This document shows, piece after piece, positions 18,884 through 31,437 of a DNA stretch of 39,576 nt (position 1 is the stretch's first letter; each line of letters opens with the position of its first letter). The notes beneath the pieces were generated by a model. The model searched no databases, was not told the DNA's origin, and was given only the letters and a program-made list of their open reading frames with translations. The position numbers and the translations under genes are program-made. This stretch comes from Verrucomicrobiota bacterium (GTDB lineage: Bacteria; Verrucomicrobiota; Verrucomicrobiia; Verrucomicrobiales; DEV007). Location: positions 1 to 39,576 of the forward strand of contig JAJRVS010000290.1 in the NCBI GenBank assembly GCA_024277195.1, read 5' to 3'.

Positions 18884-21022
18884 TCAAAGCGTTTGGTCCA
18901 CTTTTTCAAGCTCGTAACACTCGATGATATCCCCTGGCACGTAATCGTTAAATTTACCTAGGCGGATACCGCATTCCAAACCGTTACGCACTTCTTTGAC
19001 GTCGTCTTTGAAACGACGCAAAGTTGCAAATCCTCCATCGTAAACCGCTTGCCCACCGCGCAACACACGCGCCCGTGCGGTGCGAGCCATACGACCATTG
19101 GTGACAATACAGCCACCCACACGACCTGACGACAACTTGAACAGCTCCTTCACCTCGGCGTGACCGATCACATTTTCACGGGTCTCAGGGTCGAGCATTC
19201 CCAACAGAGACTCCTTCACCTGATCGATCAATTCGTAAATAATACTGAACAGCTTCACCTGAATGCCCTCGCGTCGCGCAATCGGTACCGCCTTGCCCTC
19301 CAGCTTGGTATTAAAACCAAGCACCACGGCTTCCGAAGCACTCGCCAACAAGATATCCGATTCCGTGATCGGGCCTGCTGATGCGTGCAGGATATCGACC
19401 GAGATTTTATCCGATTCAATATCCATCAAAGAATTCGCTACCGCCTCTACCGATCCCTGAACATCACATTTCAAGATCAGTTTTAAGACCTTCTTGTCAC
19501 CCGCTTCGATATTCTGGAAAAGAGTTTCCAAAGAGGTTTGCACCGGCTTGGCCAGTTTCTTCTGACGCCTCTCTCCCAAACGCTCTTCACTCAATTTTTT
19601 CGCGTGACGCTCCGAGTCCATTTGGATCAGTTCATCGCCAACATTCGGCAATCCACTAAAACCTAAAATTTCAACCGGCTCGGCTGGTCCCACCGTCTTC
19701 ACCGCCCCACCATTCGTGCCATAAAGCGATTTCACTTTACCCGAATAACTTCCACAGATGAATGGAACTCCCGTCTTCAAAGTACCAGCTTGGATCACGA
19801 CAATCGCCGTAGCGCCTTTACCGGGCGTCATCTTCGCTTCAATCACAGTGCCACGAGCCGAACCTTCCGGATTGGCTTTCAGCTCCATGATTTCCGCCTG
19901 CAAAATAATCGACTCATACAAGTCTTCGAGACCTGCCCCGGTTTTAGCCGAAACCTCCACGCAAAGTGTGTTGCCACCCCAATCTTCCGGAGTCAAATCA
20001 CGCTCTTGCAGCTGGGATTTGACCTTCATTACATCCGCACGTGGCAAATCTGTCTTGTTGATCGCTACAATAATTCCCACATTCGCCGCACGGGCATGGT
20101 CAATCGCCTCGATGGTCGTTGGCATGATACCGTCATCCGCAGCGATGACCAAAATCACAATGTCCGTCACATGAGCGCCACGAGCGCGCATCTCGGTGAA
20201 AGCCGCATGTCCCGGTGTATCGATAAAAGTAACCTGCTTATCATCCCGTGTGACCGAATAAGCCCCCACATGCTGGGTGATCCCCCCCGCTTCTCCATCG
20301 ACCACTTTCGATCCACGATAAAAATCCAACAGTGAGGTTTTGCCGTGGTCAACATGCCCCATGAAAGTCACGATCGGCGGACGCGCGGGCAACTTATTTT
20401 CCTCTTCCACCACCTCTTCTTCGGGCTCCTCTATAACTTCCTCAACCTTATGGACTCCTCCACCCTTTTCACGCTTTTCTTTCTCCAGGTAAAAGCCGTT
20501 TTTCTCACAAATTTGCTCCGCGACATCAGGTTCGATCGATTGATTCTGATTGACGAACACATCCAGTGCCATCAAATCCTTGATCAAAGCAAAAGGTTTC
20601 AAACCCAAGGCTATCGCCAATTCCCTCACCACAATCGGCGGTTTCAAATTGATGATCTTTGCTGGATCGATCTCTTCGCTCTCCTCATCCTCGACGACCT
20701 CGGCTTTAACCACCTCTTTTTCACTCACCAAATCGACCACTACGGGCGCCGGTTTCTTGATCTCAGTCTCAACCTTCACTTCCGCCTGGCGCCTTTTTTG
20801 CACCAGCGAATCAGCCTGAGGCCCCGTCAGGGAAGAAAAAACAGTTCCCTCAGACGCCTTTGAATCAATCTGATTGCGCTTGCTCTTACCGCGCAATACT
20901 TCCTTACGCTCTTCTTCCTCAAAGAGGTTCAGAGCATCTTTTTTCTTTTCATCCAGTGAGCTGCCGGTTTTTTCGCCGGCGTCTCCCTTGCCTTGAGGTG
21001 CGTCTTTTGTGTTCGAAGCCAT
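18884..21022 (-). CDS. infB: Translation initiation factor IF-2
   Basis: A 712-residue IF-2, the GTPase that brings fMet-tRNA to the 30S subunit. A charged, variable N-terminal region (about residues 1-120) is followed by an IF2_N-like helix (VVRELAIALGLKPFALIKDLMAL). The GTPase core begins near residue 220: MGHVDHGKTSLLD (G1), GGITQHVGAY (G2), DTPGHAAFT (G3), NKTDLP (G4) and SAKTG (G5). The later domains, including VLKLILKCDVQGSVEAV and the C-terminal GGCIVTNGRMARTARARVLRGG, are complete. An AGGA Shine-Dalgarno lies upstream of the ATG. The gap to nusA is 68 bases. Confidence 0.97.
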   Translation of the reverse strand: MASNTKDAPQGKGDAGEKTGSSLDEKKKDALNLFEEEERKEVLRGKSKRNQIDSKASEGTVFSSLTGPQADSLVQKRRQAEVKVETEIKKPAPVVVDLVSEKEVVKAEVVEDEESEEIDPAKIINLKPPIVVRELAIALGLKPFALIKDLMALDVFVNQNQSIEPDVAEQICEKNGFYLEKEKREKGGGVHKVEEVIEEPEEEVVEEENKLPARPPIVTFMGHVDHGKTSLLDFYRGSKVVDGEAGGITQHVGAYSVTRDDKQVTFIDTPGHAAFTEMRARGAHVTDIVILVIAADDGIMPTTIEAIDHARAANVGIIVAINKTDLPRADVMKVKSQLQERDLTPEDWGGNTLCVEVSAKTGAGLEDLYESIILQAEIMELKANPEGSARGTVIEAKMTPGKGATAIVVIQAGTLKTGVPFICGSYSGKVKSLYGTNGGAVKTVGPAEPVEILGFSGLPNVGDELIQMDSERHAKKLSEERLGERRQKKLAKPVQTSLETLFQNIEAGDKKVLKLILKCDVQGSVEAVANSLMDIESDKISVDILHASAGPITESDILLASASEAVVLGFNTKLEGKAVPIARREGIQVKLFSIIYELIDQVKESLLGMLDPETRENVIGHAEVKELFKLSSGRVGGCIVTNGRMARTARARVLRGGQAVYDGGFATLRRFKDDVKEVRNGLECGIRLGKFNDYVPGDIIECYELEKVDQTL

Positions 21023-21090
21023 TAAATCCTAATTTCCCTTGATTGAAATACTCTTGTCTTTGTTCTGTCGCAGTCGACGCCTTCACAAGT

Positions 21091-22455
21091 CTAAGCCGAA
21101 GCCTCGGTTTCCTTGTTTTCTTCTTCTTTCCCAGCCCCACCGTCCTGACTTTCAACAGCAGTTTCAGCCACTTCACTGTCAGAAGCAGCCTCAGATCCGT
21201 CGGAAGCAGGTTGATAAATTTCTTTAGCTTTCGCAAGAATCACTGCAGCCTCATCTTCGGGCACGTCAATGATCCCGGCAATATCCTCGGCATCAACCGA
21301 CGTTGCCAACATTTCGATATTAGTGATACCCCCACGCACCAACTCCAAAGCCTTCTCTTGTGCCAACCCCAAAGGTCCGGTCAATGCTTCAGCCGCAGCT
21401 TCCACCCGTGCCTCAAAGGCCTCATGAATCGACTCGTCTTTCTCAACCTGGATATCCCAGCCAACCAAACGAGAAGTCAGACGGGCATTCTGTCCACGCC
21501 GACCAATCGCCTTGGCCAACTCTTCTTCCTCCACCGTCACCTTCACCGAATGCGCGGCTTCATCGAGATCAATCGAACGAATCACCGCAGGTTTTAAAGC
21601 ATCCTGAACAAACTCTTTTATGTCATCACTCCAACGAATGATGTCGACTTTTTCGTTGTTCAACTCACGAACGATATTTTTCACTCTCGCTCCGCGCAAT
21701 CCCACACAAGCCCCCACCGGATCCACCTTATCGTTGGCGCTGTATACCGCAACTTTAGTGCGGTAGCCCGCTTCACGCGCAATACCGCGAATTTCCACCG
21801 TGCGGTCAGCGATCTCACTGACTTCAGCTTCGAACAAACGACGAACAAAATTCGGATGACTACGTGAAAGAATAATTTCAGGTCCACGAGAACCGTTTTC
21901 CACCGCTACCACGTAAGCCCGCACCCGGTCACCGACATTGTATTCTTCGGTATTTACCCGCTCTCTCGATGGCATCACGCCCTCGAACTTGCCTAAATCC
22001 ACCATCACGTCCGATCTCTCGAAACGACGCACCGTGCCACTGACGATGTCACCCGCACGATCTTTAAATTCATCGTAAATCAAGGCTTTTTCAGCCTGAC
22101 GCAATCGTTGCAGCATCGCCTGCTTGGCAGTTTGTGCCGCAATACGGCCAAAATCCTTAGGCGTCACGTCCACCTCGATCTCCTGATCGATTTCCGCATC
22201 GGGATTGATCCGCTGGGCTGTCGCCAGATCAAGCTGATCATAGGGATGCGCAACGGTTTCCACCACCACGAGAGAAGCGGTTGCCTTGATATTGCCGTTG
22301 TCTGGATTGATATGAATCTCCAGACCACGAGCCGGGCCAATGCTTTTTCTCGATGCCGCCAACAGGGCGCTTTCAAGAGCCTCGATCATCGTAGCGCGAT
22401 CGATTCCCTTTTCCTTCTCGTAATACTCAAAGAGTGCTAATAATTCGCTGGTCAT
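21091..22455 (-). CDS. nusA: Transcription termination/antitermination factor NusA
   Basis: A 454-residue NusA that binds RNA polymerase and RNA to control pausing, termination and antitermination. The N-terminal RNAP-binding domain (SELLALFEYYEKEKGIDRATMIEALESALL) is followed by the S1 domain (GDIVSGTVRRFERSDVMVDLG), KH1 (DPVGACVGLRGARVKNIVRELNNEK), KH2 (AIGRRGQNARLTSRLVGWDIQV) and a single helix-hairpin segment (LVRGGITNIEMLATS), ending in an acidic tail. The ATG at 22455 was chosen because the family begins a few residues before the LLALFEYYEKEK-type helix and AGGA lies just upstream. No rimP lies ahead of it. It is the first gene of the operon. Confidence 0.96.
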   Translation of the reverse strand: MTSELLALFEYYEKEKGIDRATMIEALESALLAASRKSIGPARGLEIHINPDNGNIKATASLVVVETVAHPYDQLDLATAQRINPDAEIDQEIEVDVTPKDFGRIAAQTAKQAMLQRLRQAEKALIYDEFKDRAGDIVSGTVRRFERSDVMVDLGKFEGVMPSRERVNTEEYNVGDRVRAYVVAVENGSRGPEIILSRSHPNFVRRLFEAEVSEIADRTVEIRGIAREAGYRTKVAVYSANDKVDPVGACVGLRGARVKNIVRELNNEKVDIIRWSDDIKEFVQDALKPAVIRSIDLDEAAHSVKVTVEEEELAKAIGRRGQNARLTSRLVGWDIQVEKDESIHEAFEARVEAAAEALTGPLGLAQEKALELVRGGITNIEMLATSVDAEDIAGIIDVPEDEAAVILAKAKEIYQPASDGSEAASDSEVAETAVESQDGGAGKEEENKETEASA

Positions 22456-22555
22456 TGTCCTGTAGGAACCCGAGACAGAAAAGGGCGGGAAAAATTTCCC
22501 ACCCCACTTTGCCCCCACGGCCTGCGCCTAGGTCATCCAAGTGTTGTAAGCTTGA

Positions 22556-24961: not shown

Positions 24962-26077
24962 TCACTTAGCCTTTTTCTCTTTGGGTTTGTCCTCTTTTTT
25001 GCTGCCAGCTTCTTTAGCTTTCTTTTCATCGGCAGCTTTTTTGTCCGCCACAGCATTTGCCGTTTTAGCGGCGTCTTCACCCTCTTTTTTCTCTTTCTCC
25101 TCTTTCTTCACCTCAGCCGCTTGAACTACCGGGATATCAGGAAGAACGGCATAAGCAGCGTATTCTGCGGGGATCTCCCCACCTCCAACACCATTTTTAT
25201 AATAATAAGCCAATCCCTGCATTTGCCACAACTTCCCTTTCAACTCCTTTAACTTGGGATCAGCAGCTTCGATCGCCAGTGCCGCCAACATCGCCTCATT
25301 AGCCAAGGCAGGTGAATTGCCATAAGTAATCGTGAACGCCCGGTAATAATCCTCCAAAGCCAACCCCTGTTTTTTCTCCTGCTCATACATCTTGCCACGA
25401 ATAAAAGAAAGTTGGATCATAATCGGTTTGGGCATCTTTTTGAACACCGGAGCCGGCAACATCTTGGCGTCCCCCACCTGCGGCACTTCGTAGAATTTAA
25501 GTCCCGCTTTCACCACATCCCATTGGTTGGCAGAAAAAGCCGCCCACATCTTCATCAACTGAACCTTCTCTGCAAACAGTTTGTCCTGGGTCGTCGAAAT
25601 GCTTTTGCCTGACTTGGTCGCCAGCAACGCACCTAATTCTTCGTATTTGCCCAAACGACGCAAGGACTCCATCTGGAAAAATCTCGCTTCACTAGCGAAG
25701 TTATCCTTCAGCGCCGAAATACCTTCGTAATCCGTCGCCACCTTACCAAAAATCTTGGCCGCCGCATCATACACCCCCTGTGTAAACGCCTGGCGCCCCC
25801 GTCCCATCAAACTCGACTCCTCCTGGAAAAAAATAGTCTTCACCGCAGTGCGATTGATTGCCGTGCCCTTGCCTTGTGCCGTGTAAGCAAACAAAATCTG
25901 TTTGTTATTCGAATCTTGAATGAAACCTGTCTCCCGGTTGCCATCCGTCTTCATCATCGTCACTTTGGCCGCAGCCGCATCAACCTGACCTCCACTCATG
26001 CTCCAAACTCCCAGCGCAACCAAAGCCACGCCCGCTTTCGCTGCTACTCCCAATAATCCTGTTCTCATCACCTTCAT
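24962..26077 (-). CDS. Exported TPR-like protein with Lys/Glu-rich tail
   Basis: A 371-residue exported protein. The signal peptide is about residues 1-32 (hydrophobic VALVALGVWSMSGG, cleavage near VDAAAA). A small beta-rich part (KVTMMKTDGNRETGFIQ) is followed by helical-repeat sequence (RQAFTQGVYDAAAKIFGKVATDYEG, MYEQEKKQGLALEDYYRAFTITYG), consistent with degenerate TPRs. The last 50 residues are a low-complexity Lys/Glu/Ala tail. The ATG at 26077 was preferred over a GTG 42 bases upstream because it opens the signal peptide. It follows the large TPR gene by 48 bases. It is probably periplasmic; the family is not recognised. Confidence 0.7.
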   Translation of the reverse strand: MKVMRTGLLGVAAKAGVALVALGVWSMSGGQVDAAAAKVTMMKTDGNRETGFIQDSNNKQILFAYTAQGKGTAINRTAVKTIFFQEESSLMGRGRQAFTQGVYDAAAKIFGKVATDYEGISALKDNFASEARFFQMESLRRLGKYEELGALLATKSGKSISTTQDKLFAEKVQLMKMWAAFSANQWDVVKAGLKFYEVPQVGDAKMLPAPVFKKMPKPIMIQLSFIRGKMYEQEKKQGLALEDYYRAFTITYGNSPALANEAMLAALAIEAADPKLKELKGKLWQMQGLAYYYKNGVGGGEIPAEYAAYAVLPDIPVVQAAEVKKEEKEKKEGEDAAKTANAVADKKAADEKKAKEAGSKKEDKPKEKKAK

Positions 26078-26125
26078 AATTAAAGTTTTAGTTACTTCTT
26101 CAGTTAAGCTCACACTCAAGCTTGT

Positions 26126-29100
26126 CTATTTCTTTCCTCCAGCTGCTTTTTTCTGACCAGCTTCCTCTTCAACAATTCCCAACTGCAGGCCGATTTCCGC
26201 CACCTGCTCAGGCGTCAGATTCAGTTCATTCCTAACGGCAGGCAAGCGGCGACGCAAGCGCGCCAGAGCTCCCGAAGGATCATCCGACTCCTTGGCCTTT
26301 TGGAACATATACAGAATCTTCCTCAAATAACTGTAAGCTCTGATCCGTTTCTCCGGATCATTAATCTTGTAGGCCAGCTCAAAACCTTGTTCCAGGGCCT
26401 GACTCGACCACTCTGTATATCCCCCATACACTGCGATCACCGCATTGTAGACCTTGATCGCATCATCGGTTTTGCCGAGATTTTCAAGAGCAACCCCATA
26501 ACGGAAGTTAGATTCCGCACGTGCCGGGCGATCCAACCATTTTTTGTTTTTATTGATCTTGCCAAAATACTCCCGAGCCCCTTCCCAATCTTCCAACTTG
26601 GTCGCCAAACGTCCCAGATTCAAATAAGCATCGGGAATCAATGACACCTCTTTGTATTGATTGATCACTCGCAAAAAACGTTCGCGAGCCGAATTGAGTT
26701 TGTCCGGCGTTGCAGCCCCTCTTATTTCAATCTTACCAATTTCAAAGTCTGCAGGTGCTTTGAACGCATCGTCCGGGCGAACCAACAACTCTTCGAAGTA
26801 AGGCACCGCCAAAAACGGATTGTCCGTCTTTGCGAGATAAAGTCCGATCTGCTGCAAGGCAAATTCTGACAGATTGTTCATCTCGTAGTTTTTCATTTCC
26901 TCAAACACCGCAGCGATTTCATCTTGAATCGCAGCATATTCAGGACTGTCTTTTTTGACAGAATTACGCTTACCTTGCAACACCACCACCTTCTGAATCT
27001 TCAACCAAGTCAACAAAGCCTGGTTCGTTTTATCAACTCCGGGAAAATCATCAAAGGCCGCAGCGGTTTTGTCTGCCCCACGGGTTCGAACGGATGCCTC
27101 GGAATAAGAACCAATCGCTTGGCGCAACAACTCGATGTCCTGCTCGTGCGCTTCCTGATTACCCATGAAGTTAATCATTTTCTCCAACTGTTTCAGGCCG
27201 TCTTCCGCCCGGCCAGCTTTTTCCAAAGCTTCCATGGTGAACACCGAAATCTGCGGTTCCCAGTAAGTGCCTTCATAATCAGGGAAAAAGGCATCGTAAT
27301 ACTTCACCGCGTCATCCCATTTCTCCAGTCGTATGCTCAAGTCAGACGACCGAGCCAGAGCTTCCGCCACACTTTCTTTGCGCTTACGCTTTTTGCCCTC
27401 GTCAATCGCCACCGAAAAATAACCCAGGGCTTTTTCCGTAAGCTCCCTCTTCTTGTCTTCATCCTCCGTTTCCAATCCTGCTTTGACGTCATAAGCGTCG
27501 CCTCCCATATTCAAAGCCCGGTCGAGCACCACCGAATCTTTACGCACCTCTCTCAATTTATCAATCGCCTCGATGCTCTTGTCGTATTCTTCCAAATTAA
27601 AGTGACAGGTCGCACGATCAAACAAAGCCAAATCAAGAAACTTGGACTGTGGAAATTCTTGAAAGTAGAGATCCAACAAACCCGCCGCTTTGGGGAATTT
27701 ACCAGTGATCACATAGTTGCTTGCCTGATAATAAAGCGCCGCTTCACGGTTTCCGCTATCGGGGTATTTATCTGCAAACAAATCCAACGGCTCCTGGGCT
27801 TCCACATGATTGCCGAGGAAATACATAGCTGCTCCATATAAGTGATCGGCCAGTTCCCGTGCCGGATCACCTGGCTCGTATTTTTTGCGCACCTTCTCGC
27901 ACACTTCCAACACTGTGTTGTATTCACGAGCGGTGAACAGCGACTGCAGCATGAAAGTCGCGACATTGTTTTCCAGACGATGATCTGGAAACTCTTTCAT
28001 GAATTTGTCGCCGTAATACTGCGCACTGCTGTAGTCACCCAACAAAGTCGAAAAGCGAGCCGCTTCATGCAAGATCTCAGGCCGCGCTTTGCTCTTAAGA
28101 TAATTCTCGGCCAAATAAGTGTAAATCGCCCGACTTGCCGTGCGGTTACCCAATTTATCGTAGCTAGCAGCTACTAAGCGCATCAATTCCAAATCCGATT
28201 GATCCGGTTTTTTCAGCTCATCCTCATACTTTTTGATCGTCGAGCTGTAAATAGCCGGAACAGGCGTTCCCTGACGCAAGGTCAAAGTCCGCATTTTGAC
28301 ATCAGCCAGAATATCGTCAGCGGTAGGGATCATCGAATAATAACGCAAGGCCAAGGTGTGCAAACCAGCCTGCGCCGATTCAAAACCCAGTTTTTTCAAG
28401 CGTTGCCCGAAACCAAAACGAGCTTGATCAAAAGGCTGCACCGTCAGCGCCTTTGAGTATTTATTTAAAAAATCATGTGCTTTGCGATTGATGATGTCCT
28501 TACCCAATTTGCTCGACTGATCAATCCAGCCCAGACTCAACTCCAGCAAGCCCTGCATCAGAAACTGCGGAGCCACTTTCCACTGGGCCTGATTTTCAAA
28601 CAGTTTGCGAATCTCCACCTCCCCTTCATCCACCATGCCAACCGCAATCAACGCTCCCCCTTTTCGCAAAGCATACACATTCCTCACCGACGCCAACTCT
28701 TTGGGGTCTGGTTTAGAGCTGAGATAACGTTGATAAAGTTTCAGCGCCTCAGCGGGATTTTTACTCATTTGCTCACAATAGCCCCACTGGAACACCGCCA
28801 GCTTCTCGCGTTTGTTAGTCGAGTCAATTTTCGATACATTTTTCTCTCCCGGTTTGGGATTGGGATAATCCTCGACACAGGTCTTAAAAGCATTTCGCGC
28901 CTGCTCCCATTGGAATATCTGCAACAAAGCGGTACCGTAATCGAAATAAATGCCCCCAAAACCCGGACCGTAATCCTCCATCCCCACTGATCCGTAGATC
29001 TTGATCGCTTTTTCAAAAATGGGTATCGCTCCTTTGAAGTCTCCCACCTGTGCTTTTTCCGACGCTGCCAGATAGAGTCCCTCCAACGATTCATCCCCGT

Positions 29101-29233
29101 CTTGAGCAAATCCCTGGGTCACCCCGGTCACGGCTAACAACAGAATCGTCATGCTCGCCACCCATCCAGTGGACAATCTTGCGGTCAAAACCCGGGCAAC
29201 GGGGGCTGTTTTCATTTTTAGTGTTCTCATCAT
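26126..29233 (-). CDS. Large exported tetratricopeptide-repeat protein
   Basis: A 1035-residue TPR protein with a signal peptide (hydrophobic MTILLLAVTGVTQGF, cleavage near FAQ|DG). Helix-turn-helix repeats run throughout, for example KAQVGDFKGAIPIFEKAIKIYG, YYQASNYVITGKFPKAAGLL and ALENLGKTDDAIKVYNAVIAVYG, with the usual small residues at positions 8 and 20 and the Y-P/F-P between repeats seen in periplasmic BamD/CpoB-like TPRs. The C-terminus is Lys-rich. It follows the ExbB/ExbD genes, so it probably forms a periplasmic scaffold for that motor; partners are not known. ATG codons at 29233, 29230 and 29215 are all possible; AGAGA lies upstream of the first. Confidence 0.82.
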   Translation of the reverse strand: MMRTLKMKTAPVARVLTARLSTGWVASMTILLLAVTGVTQGFAQDGDESLEGLYLAASEKAQVGDFKGAIPIFEKAIKIYGSVGMEDYGPGFGGIYFDYGTALLQIFQWEQARNAFKTCVEDYPNPKPGEKNVSKIDSTNKREKLAVFQWGYCEQMSKNPAEALKLYQRYLSSKPDPKELASVRNVYALRKGGALIAVGMVDEGEVEIRKLFENQAQWKVAPQFLMQGLLELSLGWIDQSSKLGKDIINRKAHDFLNKYSKALTVQPFDQARFGFGQRLKKLGFESAQAGLHTLALRYYSMIPTADDILADVKMRTLTLRQGTPVPAIYSSTIKKYEDELKKPDQSDLELMRLVAASYDKLGNRTASRAIYTYLAENYLKSKARPEILHEAARFSTLLGDYSSAQYYGDKFMKEFPDHRLENNVATFMLQSLFTAREYNTVLEVCEKVRKKYEPGDPARELADHLYGAAMYFLGNHVEAQEPLDLFADKYPDSGNREAALYYQASNYVITGKFPKAAGLLDLYFQEFPQSKFLDLALFDRATCHFNLEEYDKSIEAIDKLREVRKDSVVLDRALNMGGDAYDVKAGLETEDEDKKRELTEKALGYFSVAIDEGKKRKRKESVAEALARSSDLSIRLEKWDDAVKYYDAFFPDYEGTYWEPQISVFTMEALEKAGRAEDGLKQLEKMINFMGNQEAHEQDIELLRQAIGSYSEASVRTRGADKTAAAFDDFPGVDKTNQALLTWLKIQKVVVLQGKRNSVKKDSPEYAAIQDEIAAVFEEMKNYEMNNLSEFALQQIGLYLAKTDNPFLAVPYFEELLVRPDDAFKAPADFEIGKIEIRGAATPDKLNSARERFLRVINQYKEVSLIPDAYLNLGRLATKLEDWEGAREYFGKINKNKKWLDRPARAESNFRYGVALENLGKTDDAIKVYNAVIAVYGGYTEWSSQALEQGFELAYKINDPEKRIRAYSYLRKILYMFQKAKESDDPSGALARLRRRLPAVRNELNLTPEQVAEIGLQLGIVEEEAGQKKAAGGKK

Positions 29234-29352
29234 TCTCTTCGGCTAAATATTCGGGGTATTCAGAGGGTTTTGATCCCCTTTTTGGTGCCGCACACGACAC
29301 CTTATATAACTTTTTAAGCTGCTTAAATTTGTATCACTCTCAAAATATCATT

Positions 29353-29508
29353 CTAGCCCCAATTTTCCAAGCACATAGCACTTGATACCGTGATTTCGGG
29401 ACAGCTACACATTCGCTGCGATTTCAAATCATCCAGCTGATACGCAGTCAGATAGCTGCGTTCAATACCAAGGGTGCTCATGCTGTGATCGCGAACCCTG
29501 GTTTTCAT
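29353..29508 (-). CDS. Possible small ORF between exbD and the TPR gene
   Basis: A 51-codon ORF from ATG at 29508 to TAG at 29353, starting 24 bases after the second exbD. The product starts MKTRVRDHSMSTLGIERSYL and carries three cysteines (MCSC, then AMC), with no membrane segment. No Shine-Dalgarno sequence is seen, but this is common here. It fills about half of the 298-base gap; the rest, up to the TPR gene, holds a weak hairpin (GGTGTCG/CGGCACC with a G-U pair near 29290) and AT-rich sequence that could include a promoter. It may equally be a chance ORF. Confidence 0.35.
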   Translation of the reverse strand: MKTRVRDHSMSTLGIERSYLTAYQLDDLKSQRMCSCPEITVSSAMCLENWG

Positions 29509-29531
29509 AAAATTCAACAAAGCGTTACGCG

Positions 29532-29993
29532 CTATTTCTTTTTATCCGAGAATCCGGTGATCGTAACATTGTGAATTTTCACCTTGGCCAAGGCGTTCAA
29601 TACATCGATGAATCGCTGCCCCACTGCGGCGTCATCCACCGCCACCACCACCACGGGTTGGGAGCCAGTCAAATCAGCCGCATCCTTGTACTGCTTTAAT
29701 TTTTCGTCCAGATTCACCAGCGTCCGGTTATTGACATCTTCGTCCAAAGTCTTGTCGTCTACTACGATCGCCCCCGCCGCATTCACCGTGATCGTCATCT
29801 GGTCAATTTCCACTTCGGAAGCAGACGAACTATCCGTGGTTGGCAGCGTCATGCCCAAATCCGTTTCTTTCGGATCCAGAGTCTGGGTCACCAGAAAGTA
29901 AATCAACAAAAGAAAGCTGACGTCAATCATCGAGGACATGTCCAAACCTGGCTCCTCTTCTTCTGGTATCTGCAGTTTTGTATTTCCCGCCAT
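29532..29993 (-). CDS. exbD: ExbD/TolR family protein (second copy)
   Basis: A 153-residue ExbD/TolR-type protein: a short cytoplasmic N-terminus with EEEE, one transmembrane helix (DMSSMIDVSFLLLIYFLVTQ, with the proton-path Asp at residue 24) and a periplasmic domain of about 110 residues. It pairs with ExbB to use proton motive force. It differs clearly from the first exbD (30058-30513), suggesting a heteromeric ExbD arrangement. The gap to exbD1 is 64 bases. Confidence 0.88.
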   Translation of the reverse strand: MAGNTKLQIPEEEEPGLDMSSMIDVSFLLLIYFLVTQTLDPKETDLGMTLPTTDSSSASEVEIDQMTITVNAAGAIVVDDKTLDEDVNNRTLVNLDEKLKQYKDAADLTGSQPVVVVAVDDAAVGQRFIDVLNALAKVKIHNVTITGFSDKKK

Positions 29994-30057
29994 GAGAGTT
30001 TTATTCTTGCTAAAATTTGTAAAATAGTCGTTTCAATATAACTGAAAACAACATCGC

Positions 30058-30513
30058 TCAGTCTTTTTCCACCACATAGGTGCCGAAGATCACATCCACC
30101 ACCAGCGCATCCGCCGCGGCTTTAACGATTTCCTTGATATAACGAGTCTGCACCCGTTTGTCAGCCCTTAGATGCAGTCGGCTTTTCACCCGCATTTCAT
30201 CATTTTTCTGACGCTCGGTATCGACATACTCGGACACCGCATCAGCCGTAGGAAAGGCCATGCTCTGTTCAGGACCAAAAAACTTGCCATCTTCATGAAT
30301 ATTCACCACGATCCGGCCGCCCTTGTTTTCAGCCACCGCAGCCGCATCCGCCGTTGGGGGTTTCACGTCCTTGTCAATTTTGACAATGATCATGTGCGAA
30401 CTCACCATAAAGAAAATCAACAGCAGGAACACCAAGTCGATCATCGGAGACATATCCATGCTCATGGTCTCCCCTTCGCCTGCCATTGCTCTTCTGAGTT
30501 TTGCTGATGCCAT
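30058..30513 (-). CDS. exbD: ExbD/TolR family protein (first copy)
   Basis: A 151-residue ExbD/TolR-type protein with a basic N-terminus, one transmembrane helix (MDMSPMIDLVFLLLIFFMVS, Asp26 in the conserved position) and a periplasmic domain containing KIDKDVKPPTADAAAV and a C-terminal HLRADKRVQTRYIKEIV segment typical of the family. It lies 108 bases after exbB, with a perfect hairpin between them. It is expected to form the stator/proton channel with the ExbB-like protein. Confidence 0.9.
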   Translation of the reverse strand: MASAKLRRAMAGEGETMSMDMSPMIDLVFLLLIFFMVSSHMIIVKIDKDVKPPTADAAAVAENKGGRIVVNIHEDGKFFGPEQSMAFPTADAVSEYVDTERQKNDEMRVKSRLHLRADKRVQTRYIKEIVKAAADALVVDVIFGTYVVEKD

Positions 30514-30571
30514 TGTTAGATCCTTTTGTTTTTTTGCTAAAATTCACCCGATCAAACTTTTGAACCTTACA

Positions 30572-30596
30572 GCTGGAAACCCATACGATTTCCAGC
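30572..30596. other. Perfect hairpin between exbB and exbD
   Basis: GCTGGAAA and TTTCCAGC form an 8-bp stem with a 9-base loop in the 108-base exbB-exbD gap. There is no T-run after it on the minus strand. It could set the ratio of exbB to exbD by RNA processing or partial termination, since ExbB is usually needed in excess. Confidence 0.4.
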
Positions 30597-30621
30597 CATT
30601 AAGAACAAAAATTTAATAAAC

Positions 30622-31437
30622 TTACCCTTCTGCGATACCTTCAGGCACCTTGGCCAACTGCTGGTCTCCATGCACCGTCGCCATTGCCAGGCCCATAGCA
30701 TCGTCCACCGTCTGGTGCGCATCAGCCACCAAGGAGTTGAACTTGTTTTTGAAGAAGAAAAACGCAAACAGACAAGGCAGCGCAACCACCAGGCCAGTTG
30801 CCGTCGTCATCAGGGCTTCCCCAATCGCCGAAGCCATCTTGCCCGGATCCGATCCACCACTCACTCCCAATGTAGCAAAGGCTTTGATCATACCAGAAAC
30901 CGTTCCCAACAATCCAACCATCGGAGCCGCCTGGGCAATCACTGAGAAATATCCGATCCAGGACATGTAAGAAGGGTTTTCCCGCACCGTGAAGTCCGCC
31001 ACGGCGTCATCCACTTTATCTTTCCCCAATCCTTCCGTATCCGTAGCATCGACATTCGGCAACGCCGTTGCCAACATCCGCCCCAGGTAAGAAGCGCTGT
31101 CAGCCGAAGCTTCAATCGCACTGCGAACCCGGACTTCAGCCATTTTGTCCAACACCGAAGCTTTCAATTCCGGTGGAACGAATTTCTTAGCCGTCAACTG
31201 CATCGCATTGTAAACAGTCAAAGTAATGAAACCCACGGAAAGCAGCCCCAACGGCCACATGGCCCAGCCACCTTCCATGATATTATCCCATAGCGTTTTC
31301 GTTTGTGCCGAGTCAGCGGCAGCGGCGGCAGCCGCTTCCTGCGCAAACACATCCGGCATGCTCGTTACGGCCACAGCCAGAATTCCAAAAGTCATCCACG
31401 CGAGGTGGGAGCGGTTAAAAGAGTAGTTTTTCAGCAT
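30622..31437 (-). CDS. exbB: ExbB/TolQ/MotA family proton channel protein
   Basis: A 271-residue ExbB-like protein. It has an N-terminal signal-like segment (WMTFGILAVAVTSMPDVFA) and an Ala-rich linker, then a transmembrane helix (GWAMWPLGLLSVGFITLTVYN), a cytoplasmic loop, and the conserved pair AAPMVGLLGTVSGMIKAF and IGEALMTTATGLVVALP. The N-terminal signal peptide ahead of the first helix is common in the ExbB proteins of several non-proteobacterial phyla. It is the first gene of the ExbB-ExbD-ExbD-TPR cluster. A candidate terminator separates it from the ABC ATPase gene upstream, so it should have its own promoter between 31438 and 31503; no clear boxes were seen. Confidence 0.93.
   Translation of the reverse strand: MLKNYSFNRSHLAWMTFGILAVAVTSMPDVFAQEAAAAAAADSAQTKTLWDNIMEGGWAMWPLGLLSVGFITLTVYNAMQLTAKKFVPPELKASVLDKMAEVRVRSAIEASADSASYLGRMLATALPNVDATDTEGLGKDKVDDAVADFTVRENPSYMSWIGYFSVIAQAAPMVGLLGTVSGMIKAFATLGVSGGSDPGKMASAIGEALMTTATGLVVALPCLFAFFFFKNKFNSLVADAHQTVDDAMGLAMATVHGDQQLAKVPEGIAEG

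Follow-up and report, generated by a model that had tools for sequence, protein, structure and literature searches.

A transducer-free ExbB–ExbD1–ExbD2 operon with two exported TPR proteins in Verrucomicrobiales: a probable MUL1-type motor for the uptake of large glycans

Organisation of the operon

The window analysed here, meaning the whole 39,576-nucleotide stretch of contig JAJRVS010000290.1 (assembly GCA_024277195.1; Verrucomicrobiota, order Verrucomicrobiales), carries on its minus strand an operon of five genes in the order ExbB–ExbD1–ExbD2–TPR1–TPR2, encoding the subunits of a proton motor and two exported tetratricopeptide-repeat (TPR) proteins; a set that, on balance, we believe represents a MUL1-type system in which the ExbB–ExbD1/ExbD2 motor, acting via periplasmic TPR scaffolds, takes up large glycans.

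Working along the operon from its first gene, we see an ExbB/TolQ-type proton channel subunit of 271 amino acids (30622..31437; Pfam MotA_ExbB, E 4.5e-26), similar to solved TolQ/ExbB and preceded by an N-terminal signal peptide; signal-like N-termini are also found in its relatives. Next come two ExbD/TolR-type subunits, ExbD1 (30058..30513, 151 amino acids; Pfam ExbD, 1.5e-16) and ExbD2 (29532..29993, 153 amino acids; Pfam ExbD, 1.2e-22), which form two separate groups in alignments with their relatives and whose membrane aspartates (Asp26 and Asp24, respectively) are invariant there. Taken together, the MotA_ExbB and ExbD domains and the membrane aspartates are those of an ExbB/ExbD–TolQ/TolR proton motor. 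TPR1 (26126..29233, 1035 amino acids), recognised by TPR Pfams, is a long exported solenoid and the proposed equivalent of Mul1A; TPR2 (24962..26077, 371 amino acids) is an exported protein of the Mul1B family. For the latter, the longest open reading frame begins at a TTG at 26119, the ATG at 26077 being the more likely start. Gaps of 108, 64, 298 and 6 bp separate the successive genes. All of this agrees with a first-pass annotation made from the DNA letters, which had listed the signal peptide of ExbB, the membrane Asp of both ExbDs, exported TPR proteins of 1035 and 371 residues, and their common strand; Pfam matches and alignments with relatives now place these calls on a firmer footing.

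Structure of TPR1 and TPR2

An AlphaFold2 model of TPR1 (pLDDT, predicted local distance difference test, 89) consists of a single long all-helical solenoid. Its fold matches are generic TPR solenoids, among them 9hmf_K, from the periplasmic scaffolding of the flagellar motor in Campylobacter, and its repeats resemble the TPRs of YbgF/CpoB and BamD. A 399-amino-acid membrane protein encoded on another contig of the host genome (G000:C357:1591-2790, L152) contains a stretch 52% identical to some 210 C-terminal residues of TPR1; that contig carries no exb gene, and the frame could be either a fusion or an assembly chimera.

The model of TPR2 (pLDDT 85) begins with a small beta barrel (residues 37–84), for which Hfq/Sm-like folds are matched, followed by a TPR-like helical solenoid that matches TPR folds; as the Hfq/Sm-like match is at the level of fold alone, we claim no RNA role for the barrel. 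A Pfam search of TPR2 gave no significant match. Against the NCBIfam model NF052542.1 (‘Mul1B family putative transporter subunit’) it scores 81.5 bits, over the cut-off of 75, making it a member, and all 43 TPR2 sequences in our alignment match the family at E<=1e-3. Among 226 genomes surveyed across the class, matches over the cut-off are confined to the window's order; two proteins of the sister operon type described below fall under it, at 33 and 42 bits. We also considered TPR1 and TPR2 as TonB-like membrane transducers in their own right and rejected the idea, the sole hydrophobic segment of each being N-terminal, signal-like and devoid of a TonB-type histidine.

Conservation of the operon and a transducer-bearing sister type

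The TPR1 alignment proving too diverse for a scan, we used that of ExbD2 to search one genome per species and kept the best 80 loci, nearly all of them labelled Verrucomicrobiota or Verrucomicrobiales; these and the relatives were annotated with profiles, and duplicate loci removed before counting. Two operon types emerge. The first, defined by the absence of a transducer and hence termed transducer-free, comprises 56 distinct complete loci in Verrucomicrobiales (window counted), each with ExbB–ExbD1–ExbD2–TPR1–TPR2 on one strand. The second, sister type comprises 13 distinct loci, all but one retaining the five-gene order, 11 of which encode a membrane protein with a von Willebrand factor A (vWA) or squalene-cyclase-like part between ExbD2 and TPR1; most of these proteins have a histidine in their transmembrane helix, as do TonB and TolA. 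In several sister-type loci (L059, L061, L063, L093, L122 and others) the periplasmic part resembles the alpha/alpha toroids of squalene-hopene cyclase, possibly a further kind of force transducer beside the published vWA proteins.

This recurrence of the five-gene order is far beyond chance, and bears out the earlier proposal of a conserved envelope motor unit; the TPR genes stay next to exbD in both types. As to a tonB gene that might complete the operon in relatives, neither the window operon nor its transducer-free relatives encode a TonB_C domain next to the motor; the TonB-like membrane protein is a property of the sister type. Gene trees of ExbB, ExbD2 and TPR1 separate the two types with support of 0.96–1.0 and few exceptions (L108, L130, L062 and L065), of which L108 and L130 are apparently loci of the sister type truncated at contig ends. 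The split is less clean in the ExbD1 tree, and an ExbD1 profile survey of the order, which mixes both types, was left out of the presence counts.

The flanking genes vary among loci (MsbA-like, ABC ATPase, SGNH-like, endonuclease III and others), and we therefore define the conserved unit as the five genes without MsbA; no sixth conserved gene is found in the annotated transducer-free loci. The MsbA-like exporter that the first-pass annotation had included is a real gene (24846-23023), which adjoins the operon in two relatives and otherwise only within the window's genus; like an ABC ATPase, a 293-amino-acid protein and the SGNH-like gene, each adjoining in subsets of loci only, it was rejected as a core part. 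Just past it lies a nusA–infB pair (window 18884-22518), and close relatives share this neighbourhood. In some of the operons (L054, L060, L066, L096, L110, L113, L117, L120 and L131) the gene immediately upstream of ExbB codes for a membrane-anchored, SGNH-hydrolase-like protein of ~370–450 amino acids; this reading was made by eye, no family model having matched.

Correspondence with the Akkermansia MUL1 locus

In an Akkermansia-like genome (2.65 Mb in a single contig, the genus being inferred), the gene order runs MreB, RNase G, an unknown gene, TPR2, TPR1, ExbD2, ExbD1, ExbB, nth (endonuclease III). Two loci of this kind (L048 and L049) have the same five-gene order as the window, their MreB and nth neighbours fixing the Akkermansia locus; the TPR2 protein scores 281 bits against the Mul1B family, and TPR1 is about 20% identical to that of the window. 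When the genes are numbered from MreB as Amuc_0540, TPR2 corresponds to Amuc_0543, ExbD1 to Amuc_0546, which has been named a biopolymer transporter (PMC11480725), and the operon to Amuc_0543–0547. Since TPR2 passes the Mul1B cut-off, and since the syntenic Akkermansia locus fits Amuc_0543–0547, membership of the window cluster in the MUL1-type systems, the kind implicated in mucin uptake, is well supported; ‘poorly described’, as the first-pass annotation had it, is thus too strong, although transport was among the roles it suggested and is the one now supported.

What is known of function comes from Akkermansia, the one genus covered by the reviews of the MUL role in mucin uptake (PMC12418764, PMC13003899, PMC13174399). 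There, the build-up of mucin inside internal compartments depends on MUL genes that encode pili and a complex of periplasmic proteins (PMC12418764, PMC13003899); MUL1 is said to resemble Sus (PMC13174399); a model of mucin breakdown has large mucin sections imported, its figure marking glycoside hydrolases as associated with Mul1A (PMC11790493); and Amuc_0543 is among the proteins enriched in extracellular vesicles (PMC13335810). A glycan function for the window operon is, by analogy with Akkermansia, a reasonable expectation.

Several points weigh against this assignment. The Mul1B score of the window TPR2 is barely over the cut-off, and that of a syntenic relative (L072) is under it, at 61.5 bits. 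Equating TPR1 with Mul1A leans on its position in the locus, and a need for the exb genes in MUL1 is likewise presumed. Amuc_0546 is reported to be higher in soy than in mucin medium (PMC11480725), which does not suggest a mucin-specific role. Lastly, a search of the host genome finds tonB-type genes on contigs C288, C70 and, weakly, C107, such that the earlier statement of ‘no TonB/TolA’ stands for the locus and falls for the genome.

Ton, Tol and glycan genes of the host

Because the genome has TonB elsewhere, a reading in which the uptake role is the same, a TonB or TonB-like transducer encoded at a distance couples the motor to outer-membrane receptors in trans, and the TPR proteins serve as accessory scaffolds has to be weighed. 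Genes for tonB often lie distant from exbBD (PMC12204202), and the sister type usually pairs its motor with a membrane protein bearing the TonB-like histidine. However, the C288 and C107 genes already have ExbB/ExbD neighbours of their own, the host genome yields a single match to the TonB-receptor Plug domain (a second receptor, beside the C70 tonB, is cut by the contig end), and none of the 56 transducer-free loci has a transducer, though the type is defined by that absence. We consider this arrangement rather unlikely.

With 98 Sulfatase-domain matches, some of them fragments, the host looks glycan-adapted yet poor in Ton uptake. No match to SusD_RagB is found in 38 genomes (the host and 37 relatives). 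Genomes of family f4 without a TPR1 match (G030, G034 and G037) have 14, 8 and 10 Plug matches, as against 0–7 in genomes with a strong TPR1 match; a family-level pattern that may reflect one event.

Across the same 38 genomes TolB_N is absent from 37 (the host and 36 of the relatives), an observation that, with the likeness of TPR1 to YbgF/CpoB, might suggest a substitute for Tol-Pal in which upkeep or constriction of the outer membrane would fall to the motor and its TPR protein; OmpA-domain proteins are encoded elsewhere in the genome. But families f3 and f4, which also lack TolB, have no Mul1B match over the cut-off, and a TPR1 search of their tested genomes gave no or very weak matches. 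Since some families are without both TolB and the operon, the operon is no universal replacement; given in addition the link between Akkermansia MUL genes and mucin uptake (PMC12418764, PMC13003899), we regard a Tol-Pal role as improbable.

The host genome holds further motor loci. A paralogous cluster seems to be divided between two contigs whose overlap falls in ExbB (G000:C414:2-3958 and G000:C315:28640-31306; L026, L021); it encodes, in order, a TPR protein, a 314-amino-acid exported protein, ExbB, two ExbDs and a membrane protein that combines a TonB-like helix with a vWA-like DxSxS stretch. A second transducer-free combination of motor and TPR protein (G000:C69:30407-34361, L022) consists of ExbB–ExbD followed by an 843-amino-acid exported TPR protein, with no adjoining TonB/TolA; and at G000:C51:34073-35759 (L024) ExbB and ExbD are accompanied by a 178-amino-acid membrane protein having a TonB-like N-terminus and no recognisable C-terminal domain.

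Discussion

In the mechanism we propose, proton flow through ExbB with ExbD1 and ExbD2 would drive the motor; the periplasmic domains of the ExbDs would move or anchor the long TPR1 solenoid; and TPR1 and TPR2 would contact the outer membrane or periplasmic enzymes, such that large glycans or glycoproteins might be brought across the outer membrane into the periplasm for digestion. The motor would then be coupled to its load by a TPR scaffold, not a TonB-like rod. We favour such TonB-free coupling because this operon type is without a transducer gene whereas the sister type has one, and it is plausible that the TPR proteins would replace TonB. A wider formulation is more tentative: that Verrucomicrobiales possess a machine for the uptake of large polysaccharides, used in place of SusCD, whose motor, with ExbD1 and ExbD2 as a heterodimer, acts directly on a giant periplasmic TPR scaffold without any TonB-like rod, the Akkermansia mucin system being a specialised branch. 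The operon may, in short, be a general machine pulling large sugars into these bacteria.

According to a statement from 2026, aquatic Akkermansiaceae lack MUL1 synteny, and the locus may be an adaptation specific to mucin (PMC13174399). The complete order, including a Mul1B protein that clears the cut-off by a wide margin, is present in Rubritalea marina (222.8 bits), Persicirhabdus sediminis (179.6) and Luteolibacter marinus (247.7), and likewise in two metagenome-assembled genomes labelled Akkermansiaceae (L118, 223.7 bits; L119, 256.9 bits). Under NCBI taxonomy the three named species fall in Verrucomicrobiaceae or Rubritaleaceae, under GTDB in Akkermansiaceae. Being present in Rubritalea, Persicirhabdus, Luteolibacter and marine metagenome-assembled genomes, among them relatives from the sea and from sediment, the operon is neither gut- nor mucin-specific, which questions the view of MUL1 as a mucin-specific gut adaptation (PMC13174399); the conflict depends on that paper's definition of MUL1. 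An operon found in free-living bacteria is thereby tied to a mucin-uptake locus in a related gut species of relevance to health, which suggests that foraging on mucin in the gut evolved from a more ancient envelope machine. With a minimal conserved unit of five genes now defined and set apart from its transducer-bearing sister type, the question of how Verrucomicrobiota that lack SusD and are poor in TonB receptors import large polysaccharides becomes testable.

Comparison with known systems

The gene content parallels that of the Myxococcus AglRQS–Glt gliding machine, which also has one TolQ-like and two TolR-like proteins and large exported TPR proteins (GltD, 1191 amino acids; GltE, 471 amino acids; PMC3169522), and might be taken to indicate a machine that moves the cell over surfaces or traffics surface polymers. 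The likeness is one of gene content only: Agl–Glt has another function, its motor partner is the TonB-like GltG (PMC3169522), and it employs outer-membrane Glt proteins. Neighbour annotation recognised no GltG-like or Glt outer-membrane gene beside the operon, no sequence comparison with Glt proteins having been made, and Akkermansia, with its syntenic operon, is described as non-motile (PMC12418764). Of the explanations considered we rank this one least likely, and think it very improbable.

Closer to hand are the TPR–tolQ–tolR–tolR–vWA force-transducer clusters known from the Planctomycetota–Verrucomicrobiota–Chlamydiota (PVC) group (PMC12204202), with one TolQ-like and two heterologous TolR-like proteins and a TPR protein. 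The sister-type loci and the C315/C414 paralogue, both of which include a membrane-anchored vWA protein with a TonB-like helix, are of this kind; the window operon, with no such protein beside its motor genes nor any other membrane transducer, belongs to a separate clade. ExbB–ExbD–TonB and TolQRA have motor subunits of the same families and, in ExbD, the same membrane Asp, but the window operon has two ExbDs and TPR scaffolds, and no TonB/TolA gene. For a TPR scaffold around a 5:2 ion-driven motor there is a precedent in Campylobacter, where the periplasmic TPR solenoids PflA and PflB scaffold the MotAB stators (PMC12222027); the setting there is flagellar, and the fold match to TPR1 generic. 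It is the MUL1 locus of Akkermansia muciniphila that the operon most resembles, in its gene order and in a TPR2 over the Mul1B cut-off; the two differ in that the window host is no Akkermansia and its proteins are of low identity, and the substrate is probably other glycans.

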